A stretch of 64,000 nt of DNA from Actinomycetota bacterium (GTDB lineage: Bacteria > Actinomycetota > Acidimicrobiia > IMCC26256 > JACPCJ01), in the NCBI GenBank assembly GCA_016179865.1, contig JACPCJ010000095.1, forward strand, positions 1 through 64,000. The letters are read 5' to 3'. Shown here one piece after another: positions 24,603 through 61,324 of the stretch (position 1 is the first letter of the stretch; each line of letters begins with the position of its first letter). Under the pieces are notes generated by a model. It ran no database searches and was not told the DNA's origin. It was given only the letters and a program-made list of their open reading frames with translations. A program made the position numbers and the translations under genes.

Positions 24603-26723
24603 GTGGAGGCGCTGCTCGCCGGAATTCGGGTCGTCGACGCCGGCGGCGAGCCGGTCTCATTGGCCGGCCGGATTCTCGCCGACCTCGGCGCCGAGGTCGG
24701 GCCAGCCACGCCGAGGGCGCTCGCCCGGGCCGACGTGGTGATCGAGACCCCGGGGTGGCCGGGATGCCCCGTACTCGACCCCGCCGATGCCCCCGACGCC
24801 GTCTGGGTGCGGGTGACGCCGTTCGGGCTCGACGGGCCCCGGAGCGGGTGGCGGGCGTCTGACCTCGGGATCATGGCGGCGTCGGGCAACATGCACGCCA
24901 CGGGCGACCCGGACCGGCCGCCCGTCCGGCCGAGCGAGCCTGCCGCCTACGCCCACGTCGGACCCGAGGTCGCCTTCGCCGCGCTCAGTGGCCTGGCGCG
25001 GGGTGGGCCGGCGATGATCGACGTGTCGATGCAGGAGGTGGTGCTGGCCGCCAACATGTGCGCCCCCGCCCGGCTCGCCCGCACCGGAGAACACGTCCGC
25101 CGGCGGGGCGCCAACATCGGGCGCACACGGGAGATCTGGGCCTGTAGGGACGGGTGGGTGAGCTTCGGCCTGCGAGGGGGGAAGGCCAGGGCGGCCAGCC
25201 TGGAGACCGTCACCCGCCTGTGCATTGAGGCCGGGATCGCCCCTCCCGAAATGGCCGCCATCGACTGGACGGCCTGGTCTCACACGGAGGCGCCAGACGA
25301 CGAGCTCAAGGCGATCGAGGACGCCGTGGCGCGCCTCTTCGCCCTCCGGACCATGGCCGAGTGGTACGAGGTCGCGTGCGAGACCAACCTCATGCTCGCC
25401 CCCATCAACTCGCCGAAGGAGATCTACGGCTCGGCCCAACTCGCCGCCCGCCACTTCTTCGACCCGTCCACTGGCCGCCCCCGCACCTTCGTCCACGCCC
25501 GAGCCCCTGTTCTTGACGGTGGATTCCGTCGTATGGACGGAATCCACCGTCAAGAACGAGGGGGGAACGACGGCGCGGGGCCGTGGGCGGGGACGAAGAT
25601 CCTCGAATTCGGGTCAGGGGCCGCCGGCCCCATCGCCACCCGGTACTTCGTCGAGCACGGCGCCACCGTCATCCGGGTCGAGTCGAAGACCCGGCCCGAC
25701 TTTCTCCGCACCTACGCCCTCGGGCCCGGAAATCCCTTCGGGCTCGAGGGCTCGGTCATGTTGGACGGGTTGAACGTCGGGAAGCTCTCGGTCACCCTCA
25801 ACCTCAAGCACCCCAGGGGGGTGGCCCTGGCCGGCCGGCTCGTCCACTGGGCCGACGCCGTGGTCGAGAACTTCGCGCCCAAAGCGATGAGGGGCTTCGG
25901 CCTCGGCTACGACACCCTGGCCGCGGGCAGGCCCGACCTCGTCATGGTGTCGTCGTGCCTCAACGGCCAGACCGGGCCCCACAAGGACTACCCGGGTTTC
26001 GGAGGTCAGGGCGCCGCCCTCTCGGGCTGGAACTTCGTGACCGGGTGGCCCGAGCGGGAGCCCGTCGGGCCGTTCGGCACCATCACCGACTCCCTCGCTC
26101 CCCGCTTCGTCGCGACCGCCTTGGCCGCCGGGCTCCTCTACCGGCGGGCGACGGGCGAGGGTGTGTACCTCGACGTGTCGCAGGTGGAGTGTGGGGTCTA
26201 CGCGCTCACCGACTGGCTCCTCCACTATCGGAAGACGGGCGAAGCCCGGGGCCGGAACGGAAATGGCCACCCGCGGGCGCTCGTTCACGGCGTGTTCCCA
26301 TGCCGGGGGGACGACCGCTGGGTCGCCGTGGCCTGCTGGACCGACGAGGACCGGGACGCGCTGGCGAGGGTGGTGGGCGGGGCCGACCCCGACGCCCTCG
26401 GGGCCTGGACCTCGACCCAGGACCGGGAGGAGGTGGCCGAGACCCTCCAAGCCCTCGGCATCGAGGCCATCCCGGTGCAGGGCTTCGAAGACCTGCTGGC
26501 GGACCCCCAGCTCGCACACCGAGGCCACTTCGTGACCCTCGACCACCCCGTGATGGGCCCGGGGCCGTATGAGCGCAACGGCTTCCGGGTGGCGGACGCC
26601 CCCGGCGGCTACGCGTCTCCCGGCCCCACCCTCGGGCAGCACACTCGCGAGGTGCTCGCCGGCATCCTGGGGCTCACCGACCAGGAAGTCGACGCCCTTG
26701 AAGCCGACGGTGCCCTCGACTGA
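24603..26723 (+). CDS. Fused double CaiB/BaiF CoA-transferase
   Basis: 706-residue protein made of two CaiB/BaiF (type III CoA-transferase) units. N half, about residues 1-300: AGIRVVDAGGEPVSLAGRILADLGAEV and AMIDVSMQEVVLAANM. C half, about 325-700: TKILEFGSGAAGPIATRYFVEHGATVIRVES, VENFAPKAMRGFGL and GVYLDVSQVEC. The catalytic Asp position is kept in the C half (GTITDSLAPRF) but appears to be His in the N half (AAYAHVGPE), so only the C half is likely catalytic. The linker is encoded by a perfect hairpin (25509-25557). GTG start. It would move CoA between acids in the pathway. Confidence 0.85.
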   Translation: MEALLAGIRVVDAGGEPVSLAGRILADLGAEVGPATPRALARADVVIETPGWPGCPVLDPADAPDAVWVRVTPFGLDGPRSGWRASDLGIMAASGNMHATGDPDRPPVRPSEPAAYAHVGPEVAFAALSGLARGGPAMIDVSMQEVVLAANMCAPARLARTGEHVRRRGANIGRTREIWACRDGWVSFGLRGGKARAASLETVTRLCIEAGIAPPEMAAIDWTAWSHTEAPDDELKAIEDAVARLFALRTMAEWYEVACETNLMLAPINSPKEIYGSAQLAARHFFDPSTGRPRTFVHARAPVLDGGFRRMDGIHRQERGGNDGAGPWAGTKILEFGSGAAGPIATRYFVEHGATVIRVESKTRPDFLRTYALGPGNPFGLEGSVMLDGLNVGKLSVTLNLKHPRGVALAGRLVHWADAVVENFAPKAMRGFGLGYDTLAAGRPDLVMVSSCLNGQTGPHKDYPGFGGQGAALSGWNFVTGWPEREPVGPFGTITDSLAPRFVATALAAGLLYRRATGEGVYLDVSQVECGVYALTDWLLHYRKTGEARGRNGNGHPRALVHGVFPCRGDDRWVAVACWTDEDRDALARVVGGADPDALGAWTSTQDREEVAETLQALGIEAIPVQGFEDLLADPQLAHRGHFVTLDHPVMGPGPYERNGFRVADAPGGYASPGPTLGQHTREVLAGILGLTDQEVDALEADGALD
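25509..25557. repeat. Perfect 22-bp inverted repeat inside CoA-transferase gene
   Basis: Arms 25509-25530 and 25536-25557 are exact reverse complements around the loop GTATG. The repeat is in frame and encodes the linker VLDGGFRRMDGIHRQE between two enzyme units. Such perfection is not needed for coding; it looks like an intergenic palindrome captured when two genes fused. Confidence 0.85.
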
Positions 26724-36861: not shown

Positions 36862-38031
36862 ATGCACCTCGACTTCACCCAGGAACAGGACGACCTCCGC
36901 GACTCCATCCGCGCCGTCCTCGAACGCGAGTGCCCGCCCTCGGTCATCCGGGGACTGGTGGAGAAGACCGGGGACGCAGCGGCTCTGTGGCAGACCATGG
37001 TCTCGCTCGACTGGCCGGCGCTCACCGTCCCGGAGGAATGCGGGGGCGTGGGCTACGGGTATGTGGAGCAGGCCGTCTTAGCCGAGGAGCTGGGACGCGC
37101 CATCGCCCCCGGCCCGCTGTTCCCGACCGTCACCCAGTTCGTTCCCGCCGTGCGCGAGGCGGGCTCACCCGAACAGGCGAAGCGCTTCCTCGGGGCCGTC
37201 GCCGCCGGCGAGCTGACCGGCACCCTGGCCGTCGCCGAGGTGACCGGCCGCTGGGACACGACGTCGCTGGCCACCAGCGCCCGCCCCGATGACGGCGGCT
37301 GGGTGATCAGCGGCGAGAAACGGTTCGTGATGGAAGCCGGATCCGCCGACGAGATCGTGGTGGTGGCCGGGTTGGGTGATTCCGACGTGACCAGCGACCT
37401 CGGGCTCTTCGTGGTGCCAGCCGGCGACCTGGAGATCGAGCCCCTCGACGGGCTCGATCCGAGCCGCCAAGTGGCGACGGTGCGACTCGACGGCGTCCGG
37501 GTCGAACCCGACCGGCTGCTCGGTGGGGCCGACCACCTCTCCACCGTGACTCGCGTTCTGGAGGAGTCGACCGTCGCTCTGGCCCTGGAAACGCTCGGCA
37601 CCTGCCAGGCCATTCTCGACCTCAACGTCGAGTACGCCAAGGAGCGGGTGCAGTTCGACCGGCCGATCGGGTCGTTCCAGGCCGTGAAGCACCGCCTCGC
37701 CGATGGCCTCGTGGCACTCGAGCGGGCCCGGGCCTGCTGCTACTTCGCCGCCGCCTGCATCGCGGAAGACGATCCCCGGCGCACCCTGGCCGCCTCGGTG
37801 GCGAAGGCGGCGACGGGCGACTGCCAGCGGTTCGTGACTCGAGAGGGCATCCAGCTCCTCGGCGGCATCGGCTACACGTGGGAACACGACATGCACCTCT
37901 ACGTGAAGCGGGCCAAGGCCAACGACGCCCTCTTCGGAACGGCGGGCCAGCACCGGGAACGCATCGCCAAGCTGGTGGCCGACCGCCGCCTCGCCCACCA
38001 CGGCCCCCGCTGGACCCTCGACGGCCGCTGA
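36862..38031 (+). CDS. Acyl-CoA dehydrogenase
   Basis: 389-residue FAD-dependent acyl-CoA dehydrogenase. N-terminal helical domain (MHLDFTQEQDDLRDSIRAV), middle beta domain (GTLAVAEVTGRW, ISGEKRFVMEAGSADEIVVVA) and C-terminal helical domain (YAKERVQFDRPIGSFQAVKHRLAD and IQLLGGIGYTWEHDMHLYVKRA) are all complete. The usual catalytic Glu position in the C-terminal domain is not certain by eye; GGIGYTWEHD carries the likely FAD/substrate contact. It would oxidise the acyl-CoA to enoyl-CoA. Members with this pattern occur as heteromers in steroid pathways, but only one subunit is here. Confidence 0.88.
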   Translation: MHLDFTQEQDDLRDSIRAVLERECPPSVIRGLVEKTGDAAALWQTMVSLDWPALTVPEECGGVGYGYVEQAVLAEELGRAIAPGPLFPTVTQFVPAVREAGSPEQAKRFLGAVAAGELTGTLAVAEVTGRWDTTSLATSARPDDGGWVISGEKRFVMEAGSADEIVVVAGLGDSDVTSDLGLFVVPAGDLEIEPLDGLDPSRQVATVRLDGVRVEPDRLLGGADHLSTVTRVLEESTVALALETLGTCQAILDLNVEYAKERVQFDRPIGSFQAVKHRLADGLVALERARACCYFAAACIAEDDPRRTLAASVAKAATGDCQRFVTREGIQLLGGIGYTWEHDMHLYVKRAKANDALFGTAGQHRERIAKLVADRRLAHHGPRWTLDGR

Positions 38032-38090
38032 CCCCCGTTCTTGGGTTCTTTGTTGCGCTCTGAGCGCAACAAAGAACCCAAGAACGGGGG
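38032..38090. repeat. Perfect 2x29-bp palindrome filling a convergent gap
   Basis: Left arm 38032-38060 and right arm 38062-38090 are exact reverse complements around a single T. It occupies nearly all the gap between the acyl-CoA dehydrogenase stop (38031) and the SDR stop (38095). It would be an efficient two-way terminator; cruciform formation is also possible. Confidence 0.9.
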
Positions 38091-38094
38091 CGGG

Positions 38095-38892
38095 TCAGAG
38101 GGGTTCGCCGGGGGCCTCGAACTGGGGATGCTCGAGGCCGCCGTCGACCTGGAACACCTTGCCCGTCACCCAGCCCGAGGCCGGCGTGGCCAGGTAGACG
38201 GCCATGGCGGCGACGTCTTCGACTTCACCGAGCCGCTGCATGGGCGTCTTGGACTCCATGTCGGTACGGATGTCGTCGTTGGCGGCCACGAAGTCGAGGG
38301 CCGAGGTGAGGACCGACCCCACCTCGATGGCGTTCACCCGGACCTTGGGCGCGAACTCGGCCGCCAGTTCCCGGGTCAGCCACGAGAGGGCGGCCTTGGC
38401 GGTGCCGTAGGCGGCGAATCCCCGCAGCACCATGGATCCGGCTCGGGACGAGATGTTGATGACGGAGCCGGCCCCCGCGGTCTTCACCATCTTGGGGACG
38501 GCGAGCCGGGTCAGCAGGAAGGCGGAGGTGACGTTGAAACGGAACGCCTCCTCGAACGACTTCTCGCTCGTCCGCAGGGCCTCGCGCGGCGGCCACCCCC
38601 CGGCGTTGTTGACCAGGACGTCGATGCGACCGAACTCGGCGAGGGCCGCCTCGACCAGCCCTTCCAGGTCGGCGCGCTCCATCACATCGCAGCGCACCGG
38701 GAGCGCCTTGCGGCCAACCGACTCGACGAGGCCAGCCGTCTCGTCGATCTGCTCCTGGGTGCGGGCGGCACAGACCACATTCGCCCCCACCTCGGCCAGG
38801 GCCAGCGCACACCCCCGGCCGATCCCTCGACCCGCCCCGGTCACGACGGCGACCTGGCCGTCTTCGAGGTGGAACCGATCCAGGATCACCAC
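38095..38892 (-). CDS. SDR family oxidoreductase
   Basis: About 265-residue classical SDR: AVVTGAGRGIGRGCALALAEVG at the cofactor site, CAARTQEQ after strand two, VLVNNAGGWPP, INISSRAGSM with the catalytic Ser and YGTAKAALSWLTRELA with Tyr-Lys. ASGWVTGKVFQVDGGLEHPQF is the C-terminal signature. The GTG at 38892 (or 38889) is chosen since upstream frames have shadow composition. Expected to act on a hydroxyacyl or ring hydroxyl. Divergent from a small membrane protein. Confidence 0.83.
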   Translation of the reverse strand: MVILDRFHLEDGQVAVVTGAGRGIGRGCALALAEVGANVVCAARTQEQIDETAGLVESVGRKALPVRCDVMERADLEGLVEAALAEFGRIDVLVNNAGGWPPREALRTSEKSFEEAFRFNVTSAFLLTRLAVPKMVKTAGAGSVINISSRAGSMVLRGFAAYGTAKAALSWLTRELAAEFAPKVRVNAIEVGSVLTSALDFVAANDDIRTDMESKTPMQRLGEVEDVAAMAVYLATPASGWVTGKVFQVDGGLEHPQFEAPGEPL

Positions 38893-38931
38893 GGGTGGGG
38901 ACCCTACCCGTGCCCGCGCCATGATTCGCCG

Positions 38932-39174
38932 GTGGACAAAGTCGGACCCGAACGCGAGTTGGCCGCCGGACTCGGGCTCGCCGCCGCCATGGCCGGAGGG
39001 GTGGCGCTCGCCTGGGTCGTCATCGTTCCCGCCGTGGTCGGCTTCGCGGTCTTGGCGATCGCCCTCGGCACCTGGGCCTCGGCTCGAGGCGAGCATCCCG
39101 TCGTCGGGAGCATCGCCGTGGGGATCGGCGTCGCCGACTTGCTCGCCCTTTTCGCTTTGTGGGTGACCGCCTGA
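38932..39174 (+). CDS. Small two-helix membrane protein
   Basis: 80-residue protein with two membrane helices (LGLAAAMAGGVALAWVVIVPAVVGFAVLAIALG and VGSIAVGIGVADLLALFALWV). Charged N-terminus VDKVGPERE. No family is recognised. GTG start, no strong ribosome site, 39 bases from the divergent SDR start. Confidence 0.5.
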   Translation: MDKVGPERELAAGLGLAAAMAGGVALAWVVIVPAVVGFAVLAIALGTWASARGEHPVVGSIAVGIGVADLLALFALWVTA

Positions 39175-55410: not shown

Positions 55411-55430
<20 letters not shown>

Positions 55431-56127
55431 CGGGGTGCGCTCGGGCTACGGGCGCGTCGAGATCCTCCATGAGATCAGCCTGTCGGTCCCCGAGGGCGCG
55501 GTCGTCGCCGTGCTCGGGCCCAACGGGGTGGGCAAGACCACCCTGCTCCGGGTGATCTCCGGGACGCTTCCAGTCTGGGAGGGCGCCGTGCGCTTCGACG
55601 GCCGCGCCATCAACCGGCTCTCGGCCTACCAGCGGGCGCGGCGGGGGATCACCCTCATCCCCGAGGGCCGGGGTGTGTTCCCCGGGCTGTCCGTCGACGA
55701 GAACCTGGCCATCGCCGCCCGAGCCAGCGACGCCGATGCTGCGTGGCGAGACGAGCGCCTCGACGACGTCAAGAAGACCTTCCCCCGTCTCGCCGAGCGG
55801 GCGCTCCAGCGGGCGGGCACGCTCTCGGGCGGTGAGCAGCAGATGCTGGCGCTCTCCCGCGCCTTCCTCGCCAACCCCCGGCTGCTGCTGCTGGACGAGA
55901 TCTCGATGGGCCTGGCTCCGATCATCGTGGAGGAGCTGTTCGCCAACGTGTCGCGGCTGAAGCGTGAGGGGCACACGATCGTCCTCGTGGAGCAGTACCT
56001 CACCTATGCCTTGGAGCTGGCCGACATCTGCTACGTGATGAGCAAGGGCCAGGTGGCCTTCTGCGGCGAGCCCGCCGAGCTGCGCTCGGGCGACGCCCTC
56101 GCCGGCTCCTACTTCGGCGGCTCGTAA
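55411..56127 (+). CDS. Liv-type ABC transporter ATP-binding protein (LivF)
   Basis: 238-residue second ATPase: Walker A GPNGVGKTT, Q-loop LIPEGRGVFPGLSVDENL, signature LSGGEQQMLALSRAFL, Walker B RLLLLDEISMGLAP and H-loop VLVEQYLTYAL. GTG 55411, after GAGGGGGGAGGGGCC, overlaps LivG by 20 bases. Together with LivG and the permease it completes an importer of amino-acid, urea or aromatic-acid type; the gene context favours a catabolic substrate. Confidence 0.92.
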
Positions 56128-56151
56128 GCGTAAGCCCCGCCACCCCCCACC

Positions 56152-56206
56152 CGTTCTTGGTTTCGTTTCTCACACCAGGTCGCAGAAAAGAAACCAAATT
56201 CGAACG
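56152..56206. repeat. Dispersed palindromic element, copy B (terminator candidate)
   Basis: Hairpin GTTCTTGGTTTCGTTTCT / AGAAAAGAAACCAAATTCGAAC between the convergent LivF and LivK genes. Reverse-complement of the copy at 35979-36031 over about 40 bases, including a run of 20 identical bases. Confidence 0.75.
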
Positions 56207-56215
56207 CGAGCTGGC

Positions 56216-57829
56216 CTACGTGGAGCCGTCGTCGACGGGCTCGTAGCTGTAGTACGACGAGCCGAGGCACACGAAGCCGTTGCCCGAGCCCGACTTGTCG
56301 ATGAAGCCGCCCTTGGCGTCGTCCCACTGCACAACCGAGAAGCAGTCGGGCTCGACGGCGTTGAAGTTGGCCCCGTCGGGCCGCCAGTCCCAGTTCCCCG
56401 GCTCCACGATGTCGCCGGGGCCGTTGTAAGAGCCGTCGAGCTTGCCGAGGTACTTGAGCAGCCCCTCCCGGGTGACGTTGGGGCCCATCGACTTCACCCC
56501 CTCGACGAAAAGCGCCGCCGCGGTCCAGCCGTCGACCGCCCACTGGCGCATGGCGAAGTTGGGCTGGTACTTCGCCATGGCGTCGCGGAACTTCTTGACC
56601 TCGGCGTGGTCGGTACGCGTGTACGGCACGGAGGACCCCGTCGCCCAGATCGAACTCCGGCACGGGCTCGAGAAGGAATCGCCGACCGTCTGGCTCCACC
56701 CGGCGATGGTGGTCACCGCCGCCTTCACCGTGAAGCCGAGGCGGTCCATGGCCTCACAGAGCTTCTGGAACCCGGCGATGTCGATGGCCTGGAAGAACGC
56801 CTCGGCCCCGGCCTGGCGCATGCGGATGACCTCGCCGTCCCACGCCGGGTCGGCCAGGTTGCGCCCCTGGCCGTTGTTGGGCGTGTAGACGACGTCGATG
56901 CCCTCCCGCTCCATGCCGTCGGCGATGAAGTTGCCCGCCGTCCGAGAGATGGGCTCGTCGTAGAAGATCACCGCCGCCTTGGTGATGCCGAGCTGCTCCT
57001 TGAACCACCGGTACTGCCCGCTCTGGATGTGGAGAAGTCCGTCGGTGCCGAGCTGGGTGCCGTCGCGGGGGTTGCCGTCGCCGCCGTACAGCGAGAAGAG
57101 ATACGGCCACTTGTCGTAGGCGTTGGAGATCGGGATCCCGCCGACGTCGGGCACCTTCTTCTCGTTGACGAGGGGCGCCCCGGCGTAGGACCGGGTGGCG
57201 TTGCCGACGAAGGCAAAGATCTTGGAGTCGTCGATGAGCTTTCGGACGCACTCCTTGTTCTTGTCGGAGTTCTCCTTGTCGTCGCAGGTGACGAACTTGA
57301 TCTTGCGCCCGCACACCCCGCCAGCGGCGTTCAGGGCCAGGAAGAAGGCTCGCGCTCCCTCGTAGGGGCCGGCGAAGGCCTCGGGGCCGAGGGCCCCACC
57401 GCGAGCGGCGATGTTGCCCACCAGGATCGAGTTGGCGGTGACGCCGGTGTCGGAGGCCGTGTTGGGGCCGCCGCAATCGCTGCCGGCGCCCGACCCGCCC
57501 GACCCACCCGACCCGCCCGACCCACCCGACCCGCCGGAGCGACCCGTCCCGCCGCTGCCGCCCGAGCCTCCTGAACCACCAGAGGATCCAGAACCGCCGG
57601 ACCCACCGGAGCCGTCGTCATCAGAGCCGTCGTCGTCAGAGCCGTCGGTCCCGCCGGTGTCGCCGTCGACGAACAGGTCGTCGGCCGAGGCGTTCTCGTC
57701 GCCGCCGACCGACTCGACGCCCTCGCCCCGGGCGGCGGCGATGAAGTCGTCGTTGTCGAGGCGCGTACCGCACGCGGCGGATAGGAGGGCAAGCGTTGCC
57801 GCAATGGCGACCAGTCCATGACGACGCAC
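56216..57829 (-). CDS. Liv-type substrate-binding lipoprotein (LivK)
   Basis: 537-residue periplasmic-binding-type lipoprotein. Lipobox LLSAAC near residues 15-20, then an unusual 95-residue disordered linker (acidic DDDGSDDDGS, then GGSGGS repeats), then the Peripla_BP_6-type fold from about residue 125: ILVGNIAARGGALGPEAF, FVTCDDKENSDKNKECVRKLIDDSKIFAFVGN, AAVIFYDEPISRTAGNF and DAMAKYQPNFAMRQWAVDGWTAAALFVEG. It would deliver the ligand to the Liv permease. It is convergent with livF and divergent from the GMC pair, with a CTGAC/GTCAG site in its promoter region. Confidence 0.88.
   Translation of the reverse strand: MRRHGLVAIAATLALLSAACGTRLDNDDFIAAARGEGVESVGGDENASADDLFVDGDTGGTDGSDDDGSDDDGSGGSGGSGSSGGSGGSGGSGGTGRSGGSGGSGGSGGSGGSGAGSDCGGPNTASDTGVTANSILVGNIAARGGALGPEAFAGPYEGARAFFLALNAAGGVCGRKIKFVTCDDKENSDKNKECVRKLIDDSKIFAFVGNATRSYAGAPLVNEKKVPDVGGIPISNAYDKWPYLFSLYGGDGNPRDGTQLGTDGLLHIQSGQYRWFKEQLGITKAAVIFYDEPISRTAGNFIADGMEREGIDVVYTPNNGQGRNLADPAWDGEVIRMRQAGAEAFFQAIDIAGFQKLCEAMDRLGFTVKAAVTTIAGWSQTVGDSFSSPCRSSIWATGSSVPYTRTDHAEVKKFRDAMAKYQPNFAMRQWAVDGWTAAALFVEGVKSMGPNVTREGLLKYLGKLDGSYNGPGDIVEPGNWDWRPDGANFNAVEPDCFSVVQWDDAKGGFIDKSGSGNGFVCLGSSYYSYEPVDDGST
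57486..57614 (-). repeat. Gly-Gly-Ser coding repeats in LivK linker
   Basis: About ten GGS/GSG units, encoded by CC/CG-rich triplet repeats (plus-strand GACCCGCCCGACCCACC pattern) that show short tandem copies. They form the flexible linker between lipid anchor and binding domain. Confidence 0.7.
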
Positions 57830-60486: not shown

Positions 60487-61152
60487 ATGCTGCGGAAGCT
60501 TCTTGCCCTCGGCGCCGGCGTCGCCGTCGCCCTTGCGGGGGTCGCAATCAGCCCGGCGTCGGCAACGCACTCGCTCGACAACGTCGTCGCGAGCGTCAAC
60601 GGCGGCGTGTCCATCAACCTCGGTGCCTGCACCGACCAGCACGGTCACCCCGGTAACGCCGCGCAGTTCACCGACGTCGTCATCGACGGCACGTTCATCG
60701 CGGGGGACAACGGCCTCGCCGGGTTCCGCGGCGCGGTCGACGTCGCCACCGTGAACGTGTGTGTGGTCGACGACGTCGCAGTCGGCCCCCTGCCCATCAT
60801 TGCCCACGGAAACCTCGGCGCAGCGGGCTTCCAGTCGCCAAACCCCGGTGACAACCCGCTGAACCCGCTCGGGAGCGACGTCTGCCTCTACGGCACGCTG
60901 CTCGCCGGTGGCGAGTTCAACAACAACGGTGCGGTGACCTCTCGAGCCATCATCAACGCCACCTACACCGTCAACCAGCCCGTGAGTGGTGGCTGCCCGA
61001 CCGACCCGCTTCTGCGGGGTGGTCAGATCGCGGCCTCAGCGTCGTCGGTCGCCCTTGAGGCTGACGTCGCCGTGATCCCCGCCGGCCAGGTCACGGGCGG
61101 CGAGTTGGACGACCAGGTGTCCGCACAGGTTCACACCGTCCACACCTCGTAG
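60487..61152 (+). CDS. Secreted protein of unknown function
   Basis: 221-residue exported protein: signal peptide MLRKLLALGAGVAVALAGVA... to SASATHS (about residue 27), then a beta-rich mature part with four Cys (LGACTDQ, VNVCVVDD, SDVCLYG, SGGCPTD). AGAAGGAGTAGC is a strong ribosome site. The promoter region carries two CTGAC/GTCAG sites and one other palindrome, so regulation appears strong. No family is recognised. Confidence 0.72.
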   Translation: MLRKLLALGAGVAVALAGVAISPASATHSLDNVVASVNGGVSINLGACTDQHGHPGNAAQFTDVVIDGTFIAGDNGLAGFRGAVDVATVNVCVVDDVAVGPLPIIAHGNLGAAGFQSPNPGDNPLNPLGSDVCLYGTLLAGGEFNNNGAVTSRAIINATYTVNQPVSGGCPTDPLLRGGQIAASASSVALEADVAVIPAGQVTGGELDDQVSAQVHTVHTS

Positions 61153-61207
61153 CCACTTGCAGCGGTGGCCGCCTGTAATCACCGGCCGCCGTGATGAAAA
61201 ACGAGAC

Positions 61208-61247
61208 GGGCAGCGGCCAGGCGGAGTCATCCGCCTGGCCGCTGCCC
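61208..61247. terminator. Strong perfect hairpin terminator
   Basis: Arms 61208-61225 and 61230-61247 are exact 18-bp reverse complements with loop GTCA. It ends the secreted-protein transcript before the next gene; no T-run follows, as is usual in actinomycetes. Confidence 0.85.
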
Positions 61248-61324
61248 GATCCCAAACACACCGCTTCAGGCGACAGCAACCCCAGATCTCCAAACGGCAC
61301 ACGCACCTCTGTCGGGGAAACGCC

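Follow-up and report, generated by a model that had tools for sequence, protein, structure and literature searches.

A hairpin in the linker of a fused CoA-transferase gene is very probably a copy of a dispersed REP-like palindrome

A perfect hairpin that is read in frame between the two halves of a CoA-transferase gene is very probably one of many copies that a dispersed REP-like palindrome has produced in this genome, situated in the non-conserved linker of an enzyme whose two domains were already fused. The gene is contained in a 64,000-nt stretch (hereafter the window) of an incomplete draft genome of 144 contigs, whose assembly at the hairpin was taken as deposited. An inverted-repeat search of the window recovered arms at 25509-25530 and 25536-25557 that are exact complements, and folding of the RNA from 25480-25590 predicted a free energy of -76.8 kcal/mol (z = -8.1), equalled by none of 200 shuffled sequences. 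The palindrome is translated as VLDGGFRRMDGIHRQER, corresponding to residues 303-319 of the protein; the frame used (GTT CTT GAC ...) is stop-free through the element, so that the open reading frame runs uninterrupted across the hairpin with a CoA_transf_3 domain on either side. An earlier note on this DNA had described both the 22-bp inverted repeat and its in-frame position between two CoA-transferase halves, and each description holds (Table 1).

Table 1. Coordinates of palindromic elements and of the coding features that surround or contain them.
Feature	Position	Strand	Evidence or context
Palindromic element core, 49 nt, 22-bp arms, 5-nt loop GTATG, subfamily A	25509..25557	.	Repeat search, own-genome search, covariance-model match of 78 bits
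Full element with imperfect CCCCT/GAGGG outer stem; CC at -4,-3 conserved in the family	25504..25562	.	Pairing reaches 27 bp at 93%; boundary from the information profile of 48 half-elements
Fused two-domain CoA-transferase family III (CaiB/BaiF) enzyme, 706 aa, element in frame	24603..26723	+	Open frame, Pfam, orthologs
First CoA_transf_3 domain, aa 63-287, profile positions 111-330	24789..25463	+	Pfam, first half scanned alone
Second CoA_transf_3 domain, aa 329-681	25587..26645	+	Pfam, whole protein
Further window copy, of subfamily B, with arms perfect over 29 bp	38032..38090	.	Between 3' ends of convergent 36862-38031(+) and 38095-39096(-)
Probable degenerate third copy	56147..56211	.	Weak covariance-model match, E=0.059; between 3' ends of convergent 55411-56127(+) and 56216-57829(-)
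Subfamily B palindrome in frame in ImuB-like Y-family polymerase	L031 2501-2549 (G000:C28)		Variable linker, longer than in aligned orthologs
GTTTTGGCGTC-type palindrome in frame between AtuA and AtuA-ferredoxin domains	L148 2514-2562 (G007:C22)		
GTTCTTGGG-type palindrome in frame between CbiG N- and C-terminal domains	L105 2507-2556 (G001:C178)		
Subfamily A palindrome as in-frame C-terminal extension of FadD-like acyl-CoA ligase	L020 2508-2556 (G000:C32)		

A 70-nt query spanning the hairpin had 44 strand-specific matches in the source genome, all limited to the element itself, and the pattern GTTCTTGN{20,50}CAAGAAC occurred at 19 places (reversed control: 0). A covariance model was then built from 31 copies and matched about 42 places in this genome (G000; 2.5 Mb, 70% complete, and the sole genome of its family-level taxon in our comparison set). 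The copies fall into two main subfamilies, A (GTTCTTGACGGYGRATYYCG...) and B (GTTCTTGGGTTCTTTGTTGCG...), which have common ends and a 49-50-nt core within a full element of about 57-61 nt. The base of the stem is near-invariant across copies (TTCTTG...CAAGAA), with TTCTTG present in 48 of 48 subfamily A half-elements and the CC at -4,-3 nearly invariant in their information profile; beyond -7 the information falls to about zero, placing the end of similarity at the element border. The earlier note's remark that palindromes of this type are seen elsewhere in the window is borne out by the subfamily B copy, which belongs to the same family, and by the likely degenerate copy. Many subfamily A arms (loci L009-L029 and the window hairpin) also carry a short internal inverted repeat, GACGG...CCGTC, that could let a single arm form its own small hairpin and was not seen in the other subfamilies looked at.

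Several other structures and candidate identities were encountered in these searches. At the hairpin, Rfam returned no match above the gathering score, and weak matches to eukaryotic miRNAs were put down to chance, as expected of a generic hairpin. A DNA uptake sequence was likewise set aside: GTTCTTG occurs nine times in the window, four of them within the two palindromes, leaving single occurrences near expectation. Likeness to integron attC sites was rejected because the attC ends presumably run in the opposite orientation. A perfect 19-bp inverted repeat with a 4-nt loop at 61207-61248, in the gap after the gene at 60487-61152 (+), is terminator-like, and its sequence is unrelated to the family, of which it is not a member. 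Elsewhere in the source genome, an unrelated perfect 23-bp palindrome (ATGTGTGAGTGCCTGGTTGCGGAATCCGCAACC...) lies just past a gene 3' end (L014 4850-4896, G000:C80), and a SAM riboswitch (RF00162) scored above the gathering threshold on the minus strand of L027 485-579 (G000:C133).

The position of the copies relative to genes, as called by a gene finder that took its codon usage from the window, is strongly skewed. Among 39 intergenic copies in the source genome, 20 lie between convergent, 18 between tandem and 1 between divergent genes, as against 23, 119 and 34 of the 176 gene pairs without a copy; convergent pairs are in excess (20/39 vs 23/176; Fisher 8e-7) and divergent pairs are depleted (1/39 vs 34/176). 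Nearly all adjacent gene 3' ends (55 of 58) lie between -10 and +20 nt relative to the core; in 18 cases among the 58 the TGA in GTTCTTGA is the neighbour's stop codon. The distances of gene starts to the element are scattered.

An alternative reading is that each element is an ordinary transcription terminator, fixed in place, and that the elements resemble one another by convergence, with no mobile family behind them. In favour of this reading are the strictness of the 3'-end placement, the symmetry towards convergent genes and the paired changes in the arms, which affect both partners in 8 pairs (41 double-changed cells vs 20.7 in shuffles, a value reached in 0/500, under controls that leave shared ancestry in place). 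However, subfamily A copies next to unrelated genes are about 80-90% alike, apical stem positions included, a degree of likeness that convergence does not give. Copies also occur within open reading frames, inner stems are homogeneous within each genome and different between genomes, and no T-run follows the stem in the flanking bases and information profile of the copies, which leaves a classical intrinsic terminator unsupported. We therefore consider convergent fixed terminators quite unlikely. Placement and paired changes do fit a hairpin that is used at transcript 3' ends by one or both neighbours, and it is equally possible that 3' ends are trimmed to the hairpin or protected by it.

The CoA-transferase protein is matched at E <= 1e-60 in 43 of 58 genomes of the order, and in about 30 of these 43 the match is nearly full-length and in one open frame. 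None of the 29 fused orthologs that were aligned has the palindrome in its linker, where perfect inverted repeats reach at most 12 bp, compared with 22 bp in the window. Their linkers are hypervariable (39-71 aa; n = 29). The window linker has 45 aa, which would be 28 aa with the repeat removed, shorter than in every ortholog; for this reason, arrival of the repeat must have involved linker loss or replacement.

The earlier note had proposed that the repeat is a scar, an intergenic palindrome captured when two tandem CaiB genes fused and since kept as the linker. An element that is normally intergenic does sit here precisely where two homologous domains join, and two of the three frames are stop-free at the stem base, making a read-through fusion possible in principle. 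Yet fused orthologs with unrelated, palindrome-free linkers are found in many families of the order, so that the fusion is ancestral and older than the repeat; capture at fusion would require fission and re-fusion in the source lineage only. Fused relatives lacking the repeat, which had been named beforehand as the evidence against such a scar, are what the alignment contains (29/29 linkers). Of the earlier reading, the identity in kind with intergenic copies stands, while capture at the time of fusion is rejected as very improbable. It is also unlikely, if somewhat less so, that the copy works as an internal signal whose RNA slows ribosomes between the domains or ends some transcripts after the first. 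The predicted hairpin is very stable, normal copies are located where transcripts should end, and both arms are perfect here though many other copies have mismatched arms, but perfect arms can equally result from a recent arrival. No U-tract follows the hairpin, and no comparable junction hairpin was present in the 29 orthologs; because these do without one, a hairpin at this point is not a general requirement of the CoA-transferase family.

Other in-frame copies are consistent with tolerance at such sites. Among the approximately 42 copies in the source genome, two are interdomain and one forms a C-terminal extension, with single in-frame copies in G007 and G001. Three cases thus resemble the CoA-transferase in lying between domains or in a linker, namely those in the ImuB-like polymerase, AtuA and CbiG. 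The palindrome is absent from 11 orthologs of the ImuB-like protein and from the four fused AtuA/AtuA-ferredoxin orthologs that were aligned.

Relatives from the order and the class also have palindromes of this length, in which the stem base is identical or related and the inner stems differ. The stem base takes the form GTTCTTGCGTC in G035, G012 and G029, GTTCTTTGYGKC in G057, and GTTTTGGCGTC in G049, G040, G041 and others; the pattern TTTTGGCGTCN{25,35}GACGCCAAAA occurs in 17 of 395 genomes of the class, at no more than 17 places in each (control matches: 0). Inner stems are alike within one genome and unlike between genomes. Most of the relatives' copies that we examined lie a few bases away from stop codons, and in G057 three of seven copies are in divergent gaps, indicating that the 3'-end rule is not absolute. 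Judging from shared stem base, length and placement, we treat the palindromes across the class as one family, in which the most divergent forms would also be homologous. In G035 (C415:3712-3760), the fused CaiB gene has a family palindrome immediately after its stop codon instead of within the gene. The subfamily A arm pattern had 8 scattered matches, none palindromic, in a set of 84,980 genomes that may not include the source genome or its near kin, and a literature search on the class-wide stem base returned nothing relevant.

Returning to the preferred reading of a multiplied REP-like element, a copying process is called for because similarity between copies is genome-specific. Copying would be carried out by some activity that recognises the constant stem base (TTCTTG with the outer CC). 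Surviving copies are almost always located at gene 3' ends, where they may act as a common 3'-end hairpin, for transcription end or mRNA protection, serving one gene or two converging genes. The copy in the CoA-transferase would be tolerated on account of its one stop-free frame and a linker that accepts almost any sequence, and is probably a neutral passenger. What counts against this explanation is that the linker is no longer than those of orthologs, so that simple insertion needs an accompanying loss of linker sequence, or replacement. Mobilisation by a Y1/RAYT transposase was rejected, with PF01797 absent from the source genome (70% complete) and from 54 of the 58 genomes of the order, by a search whose control works; no mobilising enzyme was identified. 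A wider proposal can be offered tentatively: class-wide 48-50-nt palindromes might be read at their stem base (GTTTTGGCGTC, GTTCTTG and variants) by a non-Y1 host activity, which would account for copying to gene 3' ends and for a shared bidirectional 3'-end signal, with the apical stem drifting by paired changes in each lineage.

Together, our results indicate that, in a little-studied bacterial class, palindromes dispersed at gene ends can come to reside in frame within coding sequence where domains meet, and that they can persist and give old enzymes added peptide linkers. They also define a family with a constant stem base and length, a genome-specific inner stem and no known transposase, which provides a test case for how untagged REP-like repeats spread and come to be located at gene ends.

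Intrinsic (Rho-independent) terminators consist of a stable hairpin followed by a T-run. The present elements share with them a stable hairpin right after stop codons that is common to convergent genes, and differ in the missing T-run, in sequence homology between dispersed loci and in the copies inside open reading frames. REPs of the GTAG and CGTC superfamilies are a closer match, being dispersed palindromic stem-loops with a common consensus, as our elements are at about 42 places. REPs occur no more than 20 bp from the 3' ends of ORFs in convergent or tandem arrangement and seldom between divergent ones, their termini supply stop codons, and it has been suggested that flexible linkers tolerate the occasional in-frame copy (Di Nocera 2013, PMC3733652); extragenic location near 3' ends in these two arrangements, supplied stop codons and in-frame linker copies all recur here. 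Unlike REPs, our elements do not carry a terminal unpaired GTAG or CGTC tag: what is conserved is the stem base, GTTCTTG, which is paired, and the flanks of copies show CCC/GGG only. The 49-50-nt core and total length of about 57-61 nt exceed the 20-40 bp of REPs and are borderline under a definition of 20-50 nt (PMC8266576), and the stems are near-perfect, symmetric and single rather than head-to-head dimers. Neither the source genome nor most element-bearing genomes have a Y1/RAYT enzyme, and CGTC REPs are likewise without a dedicated transposase (PMC3733652). We call the elements REP-like, and not REPs, because the tag, length and transposase features fail. The other comparison is with Rickettsia palindromic elements (RPEs), which, as summarised in the account of PMC10969869 citing Ogata 2000 and 2002, measure about 150 bp and lie in frame at permissive sites of protein genes. 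RPEs are thus the precedent for in-frame palindromes, a placement that a few of our copies show but that is not the predominant one in our family; the two differ in that almost all of our copies are intergenic, the lineage is unrelated and RPEs are longer. REPs and RPEs are accordingly the closest known kinds.
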